From NCBI RefSeq assembly GCF_009765735.1, contig NZ_LMUW01000023.1:1-64000 (forward strand): a stretch of DNA of 64,000 bases, in the 5' to 3' direction. The position numbers were made by a program, and so were the translations under genes. The stretch comes from Xenophilus sp. L33. GTDB taxonomy: Bacteria > Pseudomonadota > Gammaproteobacteria > Burkholderiales > Burkholderiaceae_C. Of this stretch, positions 4,288 through 63,614 are shown piece after piece (position 1 is the first letter of the stretch; every line of letters begins with the position of its first letter). Under the pieces are notes generated by a model. That model was not told the origin of the DNA, did not search any database, and was given only the letters and a program-made list of their open reading frames with translations.

Positions 4288-5703
4288 TCAGGCCCTGGCG
4301 GCGTTGTCGGCCAACAGTTGCGCATTGGCTTGCGCCACCGACCGGAAGCCGGCACTGATGCGCCGCTCGCCCGTGACCCGGGTCCAGAAGGCGATCGCCG
4401 CCCGGCACGCCGTGGCCCAGATTTCGCGCTGGTCCGGCAGCGGGAGCGCCGGCTGGAAGGGGCGCACGGGCACCTCGCCGCCTGGCAATGGCGCGTAGAG
4501 CATCGGCAGCATGTCGTAGGTCGGCGCCAGCTGGAGCATGCCTTCGGGCCTGAAGCTGAGGTTGCCCAGGTGCATGTCGGTGTTGGCGATCAGGCGGCCG
4601 AACCACCACAGGTGCCGAACGCGAGTCTCGTCCTCCGCCGACAGCCAGCCGGCCTGTGCCAGCCGCGAGGCAAGCCTCGGCCAGTCCATCGTGCCCTCGC
4701 CGATGAGCGCGGCGTTGAGGGTGTCGAGGCCGCACAGGCGGCTGCGGCCGAACAGGCCGACGCGGTCGAAACGCTCGACCTCGAGAAAGCTGCGCCCCTT
4801 GTGCACGATCAGCCGGCTGCGCGCGCTGCGCACACCCGGCAAAGTGGCGGCGCATTCCAGCGCCAGGTGTTCGGCGGCCAGCAGGTCGGCCCAGCGCCGT
4901 ACCGCGGCCGAATCGTCGGCGCCGGAGAACTTGACCAGCACATGCGGCGTGACCGCGCCCGGCAGGTCGCGCATCGCGCCGAACTTCGGGAATTCGCCGC
5001 CGACGCTCGAGCCCGGCACGCCGGCCGCGATCGCCTGCTCGGCCAGTCGCGCGTAGGCCGGCCCGACCTGCATGCCCGCGAGCGGATCGGCCACCGACGA
5101 CTTCGATTCCAGCCAGAGCTCGCAGGCCGCGTCGCCCAGGATCAGGTTGCCGCTGGTGTCCCAGCCGCTGCGCGAGAGCACGAAGAGCACGTCGTCGTCC
5201 GACCATTCCTCGGGATCCGGCGCGACCGCCAGCACGCGGTGCTCCGCGCGCGCCAACTGGCGCCCCAGGTAGCCTTGCGGCCGCATGTCGTGGAGCGGGT
5301 ACGGCAGGCCCGGCCACCAGCCGTCGCGCGCTTCCTCGATCAGCGGCCAGCCGGCGCCTTCGAACGGCATCCAGGTCCCGGCGGGCGCGGTCAGCGCCAG
5401 GCGGCTGCGCAAGGTCGCGCGGCCCGCTTCATCGACCTCGTAGAGCGGCAGGTCCGCCGCATCGCCGCGCAGGGCGCGCCGGAGCGCATAGCGCGCGCGC
5501 CGTGCCTTGCCGCCGGCGACGACGCGATCGCCCAGTTCATCGAGCCACCGGTGCACCGTGGGCACGCTCGTGCCCACGGCGGCGGCCAGTTCGGCCGCGC
5601 TCGACATGGGGCGGCGGCCAAGCAGCGTCGCCAGCGATTCGCGTGCGGCCATGCTCCGGTTTTGCATGAGAAAATGAGAAGATTTTTGAGAAGATTCTTT
5701 CAT
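4288..5703 (-). CDS. yjjJ: HipA-family Ser/Thr kinase toxin, YjjJ type
   Basis: A 471-residue single-gene HipA relative. The N-terminus (about 25-75) looks like a winged helix (AAELAAAVGTSVPTVHRWLDEL) fused to the kinase, where classical hipBA has a separate HipB antitoxin. Kinase elements are present: the Gly-rich loop SSVGGEFPK (232-240), a candidate ATP lysine in LVKF (258), the catalytic loop NTDMHLGN (374-381) and a DFG-like YDMLP (396). No hipB-like gene adjoins it. The start is uncertain: ATGs at 5703, 5667 (residue 13) and 5652 (residue 18) are all possible, and the region between the first and last is AT-rich with repeats. The alternative starts remove only non-conserved residues. 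Family identity is secure; toxicity is inferred. Confidence 0.85.
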   Translation of the reverse strand: MKESSQKSSHFLMQNRSMAARESLATLLGRRPMSSAAELAAAVGTSVPTVHRWLDELGDRVVAGGKARRARYALRRALRGDAADLPLYEVDEAGRATLRSRLALTAPAGTWMPFEGAGWPLIEEARDGWWPGLPYPLHDMRPQGYLGRQLARAEHRVLAVAPDPEEWSDDDVLFVLSRSGWDTSGNLILGDAACELWLESKSSVADPLAGMQVGPAYARLAEQAIAAGVPGSSVGGEFPKFGAMRDLPGAVTPHVLVKFSGADDSAAVRRWADLLAAEHLALECAATLPGVRSARSRLIVHKGRSFLEVERFDRVGLFGRSRLCGLDTLNAALIGEGTMDWPRLASRLAQAGWLSAEDETRVRHLWWFGRLIANTDMHLGNLSFRPEGMLQLAPTYDMLPMLYAPLPGGEVPVRPFQPALPLPDQREIWATACRAAIAFWTRVTGERRISAGFRSVAQANAQLLADNAARA

Positions 5704-58883: not shown

Positions 58884-60962
58884 CTAGAGCGGCGCCACGG
58901 ATCCGTCCGCCATGCCCGCCAGCCGCGCGCGGATCGCCGAATCGAGCGCGCCCACGCTGGCCACGAGGTCGGCGAGCCGCGCCTTCACCTCGGCCGCGTC
59001 CGGTGCCTTGCACGCACGTTCGAGACGCTCGCAATCGCGGTCGACCTCGGCGGCGGCCACCAGGCGCGCCACGCCCTTGATGCGGTGCGCGCGGTCGGCC
59101 GCCTGCAGCCAATCGCCGGCCTCGACGGAGGCGACGAGTTCCTGCAGGTCGGCCTCGTTGGTGTCGAGCAGCACCTCCAGGAAGTGCACCTCGGTATCGA
59201 TGTCGCCGCCCGAGAAGCTGCGCATCGACAGCGCCGGCGTCTCGCCCGCCGCCGCAGGACCGTCACCGTCGGCCGCCAGGTGCCGCTGCAGCGCCGCCGA
59301 CAAGGCGTCGACGCTGAGCGGCTTCATCAGGCACTCGTCCATGCCGGCGGCCAGCGCGTGGCGCCGGTCTTCTTCCTGCACGTGCGCGGTGCAGCCGAGC
59401 ACCGGGCTGCGCGGCAGTCCCCGTTCGTGCTCGACGGCGCGGATCGCCTCCGCCAGCGCATAGCCGTCCATGGGCTGCATCGAGCAGTCGGTCAGCACCA
59501 GGTCGAAGCCGCCGTCGCGCCACAGCGCCAGCGCGCTCTCGCCGTCCTCGGCCAGTTCGCATTCCAGGCCCAGGTGCGCCAACTGGCGCTGCATCAGGAG
59601 CCGGTTGGCCGGATGGTCGTCGACCGCGAGCACCCTGAAGCCGCTCGCGTCCCACGCAGGCGCTGCCGGCCGGTCGCGCCCGTCGATCACCGGCTGGACC
59701 GCGTCGGGCGCCGGTGCCAGGGCCAGCCGGAAGCTGACCCGGACGCAGGTGCCCAGCCCGCGCTGGCTGCTCACCTCGACCTCGCCGCCCATGCGCGCGC
59801 TGAGCCGCTGCACGATCGGCAGGCCCAGGCCGGTGCCGCGGATCGCCCGCGGCCCCGCCGATTCGGCCTGGAAGAAGGGGCGGAACAGGTTCTCGACGTC
59901 TTCCGGCGCGATCCCGATGCCGGTGTCCTCGACCTCGAGCAACAGGAATTCGTCGTCGCCGACCCGCGCCACGCGCCGCAGCCAGATCGTCACCGTGCCG
60001 GCGTCGGTGTACTTGATCGCGTTGCTCACCAGGTTGTTGGCGATCTGCTTGAAGCGGGCCGCGTCGACCCGATGCCATTCGCCGATCGACGGATCGAACT
60101 CGACCTGCATCGCCAGCCCGCGCTGCCGCGCCAGGCCCTGGAAGACCTGCGCGACCTCGCTGACCAGCGGCCGCAGCCGGGCCGTTGCCAGCACGATCTC
60201 CAAGCCGCCAGCCTCGATCTTCGAGATGTCGAGGATGTCGTCGATCAGCCCCAGCAGGGCCTCGGCGGAGTCGCGCGCCAGCTCGGCCGAGTCGCGGTCG
60301 GCGGCGTTCAGCCGGCCTTCGCGCACCAGCAGGTCGAGCATGCCCATGACCGCGTTCATCGGCGTGCGGATCTCGTGGCTCATGGTGGCCAGGAAGTTCG
60401 ATTTGGCGCGGCTCGCGGCTTCGGCGCCGGTGCGTGCACTCTCGAGCTGCTCGATCAGGTGGTGCCGCTCGTTGACGTCGATCGCGCCGCTGACCAGCGC
60501 CACCGGCGCTTCGCCCTCGCACAGCGAGATCGGCGCGGCCCAGTGGAAGATCTTGTGCGTCCGGCCCTGGATCAGGACGTCGACGTCCTCGCTGATGGTG
60601 CCGCGCTCGGCCAGCAGCGCCAGGTAGCGCCTGTGCAGCACCTCCCGTTGCTCGCGGCCGACGTAGCCGAAGCTGGGCTCGACCACGGTCTTGCCGGTGA
60701 CCTCCTGGCGCGTGGTCTCGAACAGCTGCTCGAAGGCCACGTTGCAGAACAGCAGGCGCGCCTCGAGGTCGCGCACGCAGATGGCATGTGGAATGGCGTC
60801 CAGCATGGCGCGTTGGAAGGCCAGCTGGTCGCGCAGCTCGGCCTTGACCGCGACGCGGCTGCGCGCCTCGGCGCGCAACACCCGGTTGCGCCAGCCGAAC
60901 AGCAGCGCGCTCAGCAGCGCGCCGGCGGCGAAACACGCCGCCTGGACATGCCAGTCAGACAA
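58884..60962 (-). CDS. Hybrid sensor kinase, BvgS-like without periplasmic domains
   Basis: A 692-residue phosphorelay kinase: a membrane segment (about 8-24), a PAS domain (about 50-165), HisKA with H196 (MSHEIRTPMN), HATPase (NLVSNAIKYT, DTGIGI), a receiver with acceptor D492 (LTDCSMQPMDG) and an Hpt domain with H626 (AHRIKG). The receiver-Hpt part resembles Bordetella BvgS, but the Venus flytrap domains are missing, so any signal is probably sensed in the membrane or cytoplasm. The response regulator gene directly precedes it. Confidence 0.9.
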   Translation of the reverse strand: MSDWHVQAACFAAGALLSALLFGWRNRVLRAEARSRVAVKAELRDQLAFQRAMLDAIPHAICVRDLEARLLFCNVAFEQLFETTRQEVTGKTVVEPSFGYVGREQREVLHRRYLALLAERGTISEDVDVLIQGRTHKIFHWAAPISLCEGEAPVALVSGAIDVNERHHLIEQLESARTGAEAASRAKSNFLATMSHEIRTPMNAVMGMLDLLVREGRLNAADRDSAELARDSAEALLGLIDDILDISKIEAGGLEIVLATARLRPLVSEVAQVFQGLARQRGLAMQVEFDPSIGEWHRVDAARFKQIANNLVSNAIKYTDAGTVTIWLRRVARVGDDEFLLLEVEDTGIGIAPEDVENLFRPFFQAESAGPRAIRGTGLGLPIVQRLSARMGGEVEVSSQRGLGTCVRVSFRLALAPAPDAVQPVIDGRDRPAAPAWDASGFRVLAVDDHPANRLLMQRQLAHLGLECELAEDGESALALWRDGGFDLVLTDCSMQPMDGYALAEAIRAVEHERGLPRSPVLGCTAHVQEEDRRHALAAGMDECLMKPLSVDALSAALQRHLAADGDGPAAAGETPALSMRSFSGGDIDTEVHFLEVLLDTNEADLQELVASVEAGDWLQAADRAHRIKGVARLVAAAEVDRDCERLERACKAPDAAEVKARLADLVASVGALDSAIRARLAGMADGSVAPL

Positions 60963-60969
60963 GCGAGCC

Positions 60970-61602
60970 TCAGGCGATGAGCTGATGCGCGCGGGTGAAA
61001 TCGACCAGCTCGACCACGGTGCTGATGCCCAGCTTCTCGAAGATGCGGGTCTTGTAGCTGCTGATGGTCTTGTTGCTGATCAGGAGCGTCTCGGCGATCT
61101 CCTTGTTGCTCATGCCGCGGGCCAGGTATTGCAGCACCGTCAGCTCGCGGTCGGACAGCGAGGTCAGCAGCGCCTCCGGCTGGCTCGAGCCGCTCGGCCG
61201 GCCGTGCGCGGCCAGGGCCGAGGTCGGGAACATGTTGTAGCCCGCCAGGATGGTCTGGGCCGCCAGCACCACCGCCTGCATGTCCTCGTGCTTGCTCATG
61301 AAGCCGTTGGCGCCGGCCTGCACGGTGCGCACCGCGAAGATCGATTCCTGCTGCGCCGAGAGCACCAGGAGCTTGGTGGTCGGCTGCGAGCGCTTGACCC
61401 GCTCGATCAGGTCGAGGCCGCTCAGGCGCGGCAGGTCGAGGTCGAGGATGACCAGCGCCGGGCGGTGTTCGCGGATCAGGGCGAGCGCCGAAGGACCGTC
61501 CGCCGCCTCCGCGACGATCTCGAAGTCGTTGGTGGCCGCCAGGGCGGACCGGACCGCGAGCCGGATGGCCGGATGGTCGTCGACGATGATCACTGAATTC
61601 AT
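60970..61602 (-). CDS. BvgA-like NarL/FixJ response regulator
   Basis: A 210-residue response regulator. The receiver has VDDHPAIRLAV at the N-terminus and acceptor D54 (VILDLDLP), and the C-terminal LuxR-type helix-turn-helix has LSDRELTVLQYLARGMSNKEIAE and SNKTISSYKTRIFEKL. These segments are strikingly like Bordetella BvgA. ATG 61602 (MNSVIIVDD) is preferred over 61641. It is the partner of the BvgS-like kinase (7 bp apart) and lies at the edge of an AT-rich region holding candidate target sites. Confidence 0.92.
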   Translation of the reverse strand: MNSVIIVDDHPAIRLAVRSALAATNDFEIVAEAADGPSALALIREHRPALVILDLDLPRLSGLDLIERVKRSQPTTKLLVLSAQQESIFAVRTVQAGANGFMSKHEDMQAVVLAAQTILAGYNMFPTSALAAHGRPSGSSQPEALLTSLSDRELTVLQYLARGMSNKEIAETLLISNKTISSYKTRIFEKLGISTVVELVDFTRAHQLIA

Positions 61603-61799
61603 TTGGTGTTCCCCTGTTATTGGCTGATTGATGCCAGGCAAGCGCCGGAATTTTCATCATGGCGCGCTGCGTCCGAGCAATTCAACTTGAATATGCGTCG
61701 CTTCTGTGCAAATGAAGGAGACATCTTGCACGGAAAAGTTTCTCGATTGCCAGTGCCAACAAGAAATCACTTGTAAAACACAAAGATTGACATGCGAAC

Positions 61800-61813
61800 T
61801 GAGAATTTTCTTA
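61800..61813. promoter_or_regulatory. BvgA-type inverted heptad site 1
   Basis: TGAGAAT directly followed by TTTCTTA: two heptads facing inward with no spacer. TTTCTTA fits the known BvgA half-site pattern WTTCYTA exactly, and TGAGAAT matches its complement in 6 of 7 positions. It overlaps the region of a possible -10 element. Confidence 0.55.
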
Positions 61814-61818
61814 TTTAA

Positions 61819-61828
61819 ACGGTACCGT
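61819..61828. promoter_or_regulatory. ACGGTACCGT palindrome
   Basis: A perfect 10-bp palindrome 5 bp after heptad site 1. It could be a separate repressor site or chance; no second copy was found. Confidence 0.35.
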
Positions 61829-61862
61829 ATTTTTGTATGACGAGAATCAAATGGAACCGCTT

Positions 61863-61876
61863 TGAGAATATTCTTA
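61863..61876. promoter_or_regulatory. BvgA-type inverted heptad site 2
   Basis: TGAGAAT followed by ATTCTTA. It differs from site 1 by one base and lies exactly 63 bp from it, six helical turns at 10.5 bp per turn, so bound dimers would face the same side of the DNA. Confidence 0.55.
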
Positions 61877-61881
61877 TTGTC

Positions 61882-61893
61882 TTGAGCGCTCAA
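61882..61893. promoter_or_regulatory. TTGAGCGCTCAA palindrome
   Basis: A perfect 12-bp palindrome 5 bp after heptad site 2, about 230 bp before the permease start. It is a candidate operator for another regulator. Confidence 0.4.
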
Positions 61894-62123
61894 TTCAAGT
61901 CCGCATCAACAAGCTTCGTCCGCGGCATCCATCGGGGAGGACCATGCGTTTGCCAGGGATTTGGACGCCGCATTGTGTGCCGACTGCAATTCCCGATGGC
62001 CTTGGCGAATTAAGGGTAAACACCGCCTGATCAATTCAATTCGGCACTGCATTGCGCGCTAATCTTGCCCGCCACACGCAAAGACGCGATCCAGCGCCGC
62101 CTTCGAATTGCTCAGGGAGAACC

Positions 62124-63614
62124 ATGAACGCCAGCATCGGCCAAAGCGCCATCGACGCCCCGATTTCCGGGCCGCCCCTTCATCCGGAATCACCGGGCCT
62201 GATCAAGCCCGGCTATCACCCGCGATTGACCAATGAGGACCTGGCGCCATTGCGACGGCAAACCTGGAGCCGCTACAACATCTTCGCGTTCTGGATGTCC
62301 GACGTGCACAGCGTCGGCGGCTACATCACGGCCGGCAGCCTGTTCGCGCTCGGCCTGTCCAGCTGGCAGGTCCTGGTGTCGCTGCTGGCCGGCATCCTGA
62401 TCGTGCAGTTCTTCTGCAACCTGGTGGCCAAGCCGAGCCAGGTGACCGGAACGCCCTACCCGGTCATCTGCCGCGCCTCCTTCGGCGTGCTCGGCGCCAA
62501 CATCCCCGCGGTCATCCGCGGGCTGATCGCGGTGGCGTGGTACGGCATCCAGACCTACCTCGCGTCCGGCGCCGTCCTGCTGCTGGCCTTGCATTTCCTG
62601 CCGGCGCTGGCGCCGTATGCCGACGTGAACCTGCACGGCTTCGCCGGCCTCTCGGCACTGGGCTGGATCGCCTTCGCGGTCATGTGGGTGCTGCAGGCGT
62701 TGCTGTTCTGGCACGGCATGGAAGCCATCCGGCGCTTCATCGACTGGGCCGGCCCGGCGGTCTACGTGGTGATGGCGGCGCTGTGCGGCTGGCTGGTCTG
62801 GAAGGCCGGCTGGGAGAACATCGACCTGCGCCTGGGCGGCGTCAGATTCGAAGGCTGGGACGCGCTGCCGGTGATGCTGAGCGCGATGGCGCTCGTGGTG
62901 AGCTACTTCAGCGGGCCGATGCTCAACTTCGGCGACTTCTCGCGCTACGGCCGCAGCTTCGAGGCGGTGCGCAAGGGCAACTTCTGGGGCCTGCCGGTCA
63001 ACTTTCTCTTCTTCTCGCTGCTGGCGGTGCTGACCTCGGCGGCCACCTTGCCGGTCTTCGGCGAACTCATCACCGACCCGGTCCACACGGTGGCCCGCAT
63101 CGACAACACCACCGCGGTGGTGATCGGCGCGCTGACCTTCATGATCGCGACGGTCGGCATCAACATCGTCGCCAACTTCGTGTCGCCGGCCTTCGACTTC
63201 TCCAACGTCGCGCCGCAGCACATCAGCTGGCGTGCCGGCGGCATGCTGGCCGCGGTCGGCTCGGTCTTCATCACGCCCTGGAACCTCTACAACAACCCCG
63301 AGGTGATCCACTACACACTGGACGTGCTGGGCGCCTTCATCGGGCCGCTGTTCGGCATCCTCATCGCCGACTACTACGTGGTGCGCAAGCAGCGCGTCGA
63401 CGTCGACGCGCTCTACTCGATGAACCCGCGGGACGAATACTGGTACAGCCAGGGCTACAACCCGCGCGCCATGTGGGCGCTGGTGCCGGCGGCGTTGCTG
63501 CCGATGCTGTGCGTGGTCGTGCCGGACCTGCGGGTCGCGGCCAGCTACGCCTGGTTCATCGGCACCGCGGTCGGCTTCATTGCCTACCTGCTGCTCAACG
63601 CCCGCCGGAAGTGA
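62124..63614 (+). CDS. NCS1-family nucleobase/allantoin/hydantoin permease
   Basis: A 496-residue membrane carrier of the Mhp1/PucI/CodB group with about twelve helices. Family segments include NEDLAPLRRQTWSRYNIFAFWMSDVHSVGGY, GTPYPVICRASFGVLGAN and FSGPMLNFGDFSRYG. The next gene is a hydantoin/allantoin racemase, so the substrate is probably a hydantoin, with allantoin the best guess given the urate genes nearby. ATG 62124 has AGGGAGA at ideal spacing; an in-frame ATG 24 codons earlier lacks one. Confidence 0.9.
   Translation: MNASIGQSAIDAPISGPPLHPESPGLIKPGYHPRLTNEDLAPLRRQTWSRYNIFAFWMSDVHSVGGYITAGSLFALGLSSWQVLVSLLAGILIVQFFCNLVAKPSQVTGTPYPVICRASFGVLGANIPAVIRGLIAVAWYGIQTYLASGAVLLLALHFLPALAPYADVNLHGFAGLSALGWIAFAVMWVLQALLFWHGMEAIRRFIDWAGPAVYVVMAALCGWLVWKAGWENIDLRLGGVRFEGWDALPVMLSAMALVVSYFSGPMLNFGDFSRYGRSFEAVRKGNFWGLPVNFLFFSLLAVLTSAATLPVFGELITDPVHTVARIDNTTAVVIGALTFMIATVGINIVANFVSPAFDFSNVAPQHISWRAGGMLAAVGSVFITPWNLYNNPEVIHYTLDVLGAFIGPLFGILIADYYVVRKQRVDVDALYSMNPRDEYWYSQGYNPRAMWALVPAALLPMLCVVVPDLRVAASYAWFIGTAVGFIAYLLLNARRK

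Follow-up and report, generated by a model that had tools for sequence, protein, structure and literature searches.

The 64,000-nucleotide stretch of the Xenophilus sp. L33 genome that we analysed (hereafter the window) carries a gene pair for a response regulator and a hybrid kinase, separated from a divergent permease gene by an AT-rich gap that holds two palindromic sites of similar sequence. The locus raises the question of which gene these sites serve and which protein binds them. The original prediction read them as BvgA-type operators through which the regulator controls itself, the permease, or both. From comparisons at the sequence level, we consider it probable that the sites form part of the regulator-kinase operon's promoter region and are bound by the operon's own regulator in phosphorylated form, which would raise expression of that operon.

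The regulator and its kinase

The response regulator was found where it had been predicted, at 60970-61602 on the (-) strand. Its open reading frame encodes 210 amino acids of the NarL/FixJ type, with a domain search recovering a receiver (Asp54) and a LuxR-type helix-turn-helix. The nearest NCBIfam models are FimZ and EvgA, both below the equivalog cut-off, so that neither name is assigned to the protein. Identity amounts to 42% with E. coli FimZ and 36% with EvgA, with a similar recognition helix, which supports an EvgA/FimZ-type assignment. Within the genus sample (101 genomes of the Variovorax group, including that of the window), 16 genomes have matches to the regulator at E<=1e-60, and among 399 family-sampled genomes it was recovered only in the window's own, with seven candidates scored per genome and misses therefore possible. 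All 19 genus rows fall into one clade (support 100/99) of a tree of 67 regulators, whose only named reference is E. coli EvgA on a long branch. We distinguish group A (the window and the four other loci with the gene pair), group B (seven loci, a clade near a gene taken by eye for uvrA) and group C (the remaining seven loci, split between two sub-clades). Support for A plus B as one group is 100/99, while A alone does not resolve as a clade.

The hybrid kinase (58884-60962, (-) strand) begins with a TTG codon 7 bp past the regulator stop and comprises one hydrophobic segment followed by PAS, HisKA (His196), HATPase, receiver (Asp492) and Hpt (His626) domains. In this it resembles the TM-PAS-HisKA-HATPase-REC-Hpt half of BvgS and EvgS, but unlike them it has no periplasmic Venus-flytrap part; a scan of all five pair kinases for SBP_bac_3 (Venus-flytrap) domains found none, in agreement with the predicted BvgS-type kinase lacking a periplasmic sensor. 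The protein is colinear with EvgS residues 529-1189 (30% identity), and its residues 11-681 are colinear with residues 539-1220 of a Venus-flytrap kinase of 1228 aa (L122) at 57% identity. SBP_bac_3 Venus-flytrap domains are present in the kinases of L121, L122, L126 and L128, and one group C kinase (L125, 727 aa) is without them. Group B kinases carry several PAS domains in both that were scanned and show 34-38% identity in the three compared. For group A, similarity and tree disagree: its kinase is nearest to group C and its regulator nearest to group B (L109-L128). This mismatch in affinity suggests that kinase partners may have been exchanged, or that the group B kinase may have been replaced.

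Two inverted-heptad sites in the gap

A pattern search placed site 1 (TGAGAAT-TTTCTTA, TGAGAATTTTCTTA) at 61800-61813 and site 2 (TGAGAAT-ATTCTTA, TGAGAATATTCTTA) at 61863-61876, both on the (+) strand and with the predicted 63 bp (3 x 21) between their starts. Their description as inverted heptads of the WTTCYTA type holds for one half of each site, which is exact (TTTCTTA, ATTCTTA), whereas the other half, ATTCTCA on the other strand, departs from it by one mismatch at position 6. The second half reads NNTCTGA in four relatives, and the first half is TTTCTCA in L110. Across the whole genome (6,916,727 bases, 224 contigs), exact TGAGAATNTTCTTA occurs at sites 1 and 2 only; the other 12 genome rows have two mismatches each, one of them being site 2 (61863) on the opposite strand. 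With up to three mismatches the window holds eight matches, each site being counted on the other strand as well, against a shuffle mean of 1.35; none of 100 shuffles reached eight (maximum 7).

A lone half-site, CGAGAAT, was noticed by eye between the two sites at 61841-61847 on the (+) strand (41 bp from the first, 22 bp from the second), and is possibly a weak intermediate site, the full 14-mer there not being among the top-scoring sites. Two further features were observed in passing. A perfect 10-bp palindrome, ACGGTACCGT, lies between both sites at 61819-61828 and faces a gap in the relatives' alignment, and at 5675-5700, distant from the regulator, the motif occurs in two imperfect copies that overlap (TGAGAAGATTTTTGAGAAGATTCTTT).

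Conservation of site 1 and its link to the regulator

Five of the 101 genus genomes, the window's and four more, contain the regulator-kinase pair. Conservation of the sites in relatives that keep the gene pair was a check named at the outset, and site 1 is present in all four of the other genomes, lying 183-220 bp upstream of the regulator ATG across all five. Of all 14-mers in the 340-bp upstream alignment it is the best conserved (63/70, against a mean of 30), and the next separate conserved block is TAAAATNNNNTTGAATTG. By eye from the alignment, a -10-like hexamer in the regulator's direction, CATATT, stands at 61690-61695 on the (-) strand, 104 bp from site 1. At the same alignment place the four relatives have TAAAAT (also by eye), 105, 107, 106 and 106 bp from the site. 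These hexamers were chosen post hoc and the window's CATATT scores 4/6, while a consensus sigma-70 scan of 61400-62300 returned no promoter and the -10-like block is without a recognisable -35. Across the five genomes the distance from site to hexamer stays at 104-107 bp, whereas that from site to ATG ranges over 37 bp, and this near-fixed spacing to the -10-like block links the site with the regulator's side.

Autorepression, with the same sites and regulator but binding that lowers expression, seems unlikely to us. The sign is not fixed by sequence, and a repressor reading could draw on the long distance to the putative promoter with no clear sites between; against it, an arrangement with upstream sites and no recognisable -35 is reminiscent of the BvgA-activated promoters described in the accessible part of PMC7250471.

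Two of the pair genomes, G023 and G024 (L110, L111), are near relatives, so that the five upstream regions are not independent and the spacing statistics given below are optimistic. In a third, G027 (L023/L113), the deposited sequence has a frame shift in the regulator near residues 17-20 (L023:4001-4060), which may reflect a broken gene or a read error; the upstream site is retained. Beyond the pair, a site with at most two mismatches within 600 bp was found at only two of the 14 group B and C loci (L123, L126), and looser scoring (at least 8, within 400 bp) places a site upstream in 8 of these 14.

The neighbouring permease

The divergent neighbour of the regulator is an NCS1-family permease of the allantoin/nucleobase type (62124-63614, (+) strand, domain search), which is probably not the main target. 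The pair lies reversed between an M20 peptidase gene and NCS1/NCS2-type permeases, and in all five genomes ureide-degradation genes adjoin it; the neighbours include GntR, PuuE and UraD-AllC genes and an HIU-hydrolase-like gene, the last identified by eye. This setting, with site 2 about 250 bp from the NCS1 ATG, gives some colour to a reading in which the array serves both divergent genes and the regulator also drives NCS1, and with it allantoin/nucleobase uptake. Such dual control would be compatible with autoregulation, and we assign it a small probability. Against it, NCS1 is directly divergent in the window alone. It lies further away in L112 and L113, and was not found in the 20-kb regions of L110 and L111, although both of these (the G023/G024 pair) keep the site. 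The M20 gene of the ureide locus is present in 98 of the 101 genomes and the pair in five, which implies that the ureide locus as such does not need the pair. Within 13 kb of the M20 gene in 12 other genus genomes, NCS1 or NCS2 occurs in nine and neither in three, and no relative of the regulator or kinase was detected there at the cut-off used.

Three strains without the regulator (L183, L188, L189) share a different conserved block upstream of NCS1, AGGGAATCTACGGATATATG ... TTGTATACAAAT, which argues against the heptad sites as NCS1 elements. Only traces of this block are found in the window, which weakens the argument for the window itself, where NCS1 might use other elements. The same three strains and L113 carry TTGTATACAA upstream of NCS1, which is absent from the window at up to one mismatch. 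These four loci share TTGTATACAAA there, which has the shape of a GntR/FCD operator and was not found in the window. In the loci tested, the NCS2, Rnk, UspA and sm20 promoters gave no site scoring at least 8 (best 6.5). We therefore set aside NCS1 as the ancestral target on synteny and on the different block upstream of it in other strains, and regard autoregulation as most likely, because NCS1 is rarely divergent and the other promoters lack sites. Of the predicted control of self and/or NCS1, self-control is the better supported part, with a site beside the regulator in five of five genomes, and control of NCS1 the poorly supported one, with the site persisting in two genomes that have no NCS1 nearby.

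A wider regulon was considered and rejected. When a 16-bp pattern was searched in the five genomes, only G077 and G027 (L136, L132) gave matches without mismatch beyond the regulator gap, both in open frames of coding-like composition; of nine one-mismatch matches, five (L134, L141, L142, L143 and L149) are not in clear coding frames. Site 1 scores 26-31, whereas the highest value for a 16-mer elsewhere in the window and the 20-kb neighbourhoods is 14.4. Azoarcus AccS/AccR was likewise dropped as a catabolic parallel, no heptads being mentioned in the available portion of PMC6456745, and the open-access literature yielded nothing on Variovorax, allantoin and two-component systems combined.

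A separate observation concerns two small proteins without a Pfam match (85 and 64 aa), encoded near UspA and a GreA-like gene (L110:9132-9614, L111, L113, L193, L194). Close relatives of the 64-aa protein (at least 70%) occur in 11 of the 101 genomes, ten of which carry a group A or B regulator, a co-occurrence that may be explained by common ancestry of the strains.

Spacing of paired sites

Inverted heptads were scored with a model built from group A and three literature half-sites, applied leave-one-out so that the scored sequence was excluded from its own model. The best second site falls at +22 in L110 and L113, +44 in L112, +53 in L111 (with +22 next) and +63 in the window, where neither +22 nor +44 holds a scoring full site. 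Outside site 1, the mean leave-one-out profile is highest at +22, followed by -9 and then +44. When flanks were shuffled, neither the real mean at +22 nor that at +44 was reached in 3000 trials; the +22 value was reached somewhere among offsets 14-104 in 3/3000, at least three best sites at multiples of 22 arose in 4/3000, and a looser helical-phase count was matched by 68/3000.

As an outside test, 62 upstream regions of other, less related regulators were reduced to 35 non-redundant ones, of which 14 have a site scoring at least 8 and 21 do not. Around the best site of these regions, the spacing profile peaks at 22, 21, 44 and 43 bp, and the 22-bp value was reached in none of 500 shuffles. 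Column-permuted models lean to 22 as well (mean z 1.1), with the real z at 22 and that at 44 each reached by 16 of 300 such models and the two matched jointly by one of 300; phased A/T tracts thus contribute part of the 22-bp signal. A plain count finds a second site at 21-23 bp in 5 of the 14 outside regions, a fraction reached by 8 of 400 shuffles. Single cases are L163, with two good sites 44 bp apart, L181, with 43 bp, and L126, which presents one good and two weak inverted heptads in exact 22-bp steps (-205, -183, -161) beside its Venus-flytrap kinase. The upstream regions of E. coli evgA and fimZ, checked for generality, show no such arrangement; that of evgA has TTCTTA and TAAGAA halves apart and in opposite order (by eye), with no head-to-head array.

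Other candidate readers of the sites

The sites could instead be operators of another NarL/FixJ-type regulator, RcsB-like or paralogous, rather than of the neighbour. The RcsAB box, the RcsA/RcsB operator of enterics, is a 14-bp palindrome with consensus TaAGaatatTCcta and conserved T, A, G, T and C, according to the accessible text of PMC4325325. Site 2 is nearly equal to it in sequence, agreeing by eye at 12 of 14 positions including all five most conserved letters. The looser sites upstream of 8 of the 14 other genus regulator genes point in the same direction. We nonetheless think this reading improbable, given that the genome's only two exact matches adjoin the neighbouring regulator gene and that the site accompanies the pair in five genomes, compared with a site of at most two mismatches in only 2 of 14 paralogue loci. 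RcsAB boxes of enterics are not known to form 22-bp arrays.

It is very improbable that the sites are functionless chance palindromes. Such a reading could draw on the AT-rich gap, the shortness of the half-sites, the share of the 22-bp signal that phased A/T tracts account for, and the retention of the site in G027 despite its shifted regulator frame. Against it, all five genomes conserve the site, its distance to a second conserved block is nearly fixed, and the genome has no further exact match.

A proposed mode of autoregulation

We hypothesize that the phosphorylated regulator binds the inverted heptads as head-to-head dimers about two helical turns apart, in the manner of phosphorylated BvgA (BvgA~P), and that these dimers would act some 110 bp ahead of a -10-like block without a recognisable -35, leading to positive autoregulation. 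Site 1 would be the ancestral anchor, with the second site at +22, +44 or +63 depending on the genome. Since the BvgS-type phosphorelay kinase has no Venus-flytrap domains, its input would presumably arrive via either its membrane segment or its PAS domain. More tentatively, and short of calling it probable, head-to-head heptad arrays with two-turn spacing might be the element by which a Burkholderiales clade of BvgA-like regulators ancestrally controlled itself, retained while the partner kinases lost, swapped or kept their sensors. If so, the design would be a general one of which the Bordetella virulence switch is a single branch, and the Variovorax pair would represent a natural BvgS that lacks Venus-flytrap domains and has to sense by PAS or the membrane segment.

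Comparison with known systems

In Bordetella, bvgAS is autoregulated. As far as the consulted part of PMC7250471 describes, BvgA~P binds inverted heptads head-to-head at fhaB and ptx, with dimers 22 bp apart on centre and a weak or imperfect -35 at ptx; weak BvgA sites are not easily predicted. The fhaB heptad is given as TTTCCTA in the portion of PMC4314077 that we could consult. The sites described here share with BvgA~P arrays the head-to-head inverted heptads. As to spacing, 22 bp is seen in the relatives L110, L111 and L113 and 44 bp in L112, against 63 bp in the window. The sites differ from the fhaB heptad in reading WTTCTYA with a weaker NNTCT(C/G)A half. Site 1 ends 104 bp from the -10-like hexamer. 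No promoter-proximal site abutting a -35, as in BvgA-type promoters, was seen, nor any clear site between site 1 and the predicted -10. The sequence likeness supports a BvgA-like array; the predicted BvgA-type arrangement finds support, but the label was too specific for the sites themselves, since site 2 fits the RcsAB box. Among the open-access papers listed by our searches, and in passages of PMC6456745, PMC4352136 and PMC3726324, we could match none to a 22-bp array outside Bordetella.

The locus offers a sequence-level, testable case of BvgA-style array binding in a soil genus rather than in Bordetella. It also suggests that a DNA-site architecture can outlast the exchange of a kinase sensor. 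It corrects the easy assumption that a permease adjoining a regulator is that regulator's target. A BvgS-type kinase that is naturally sensor-less also bears on the default on/off setting of such kinases.
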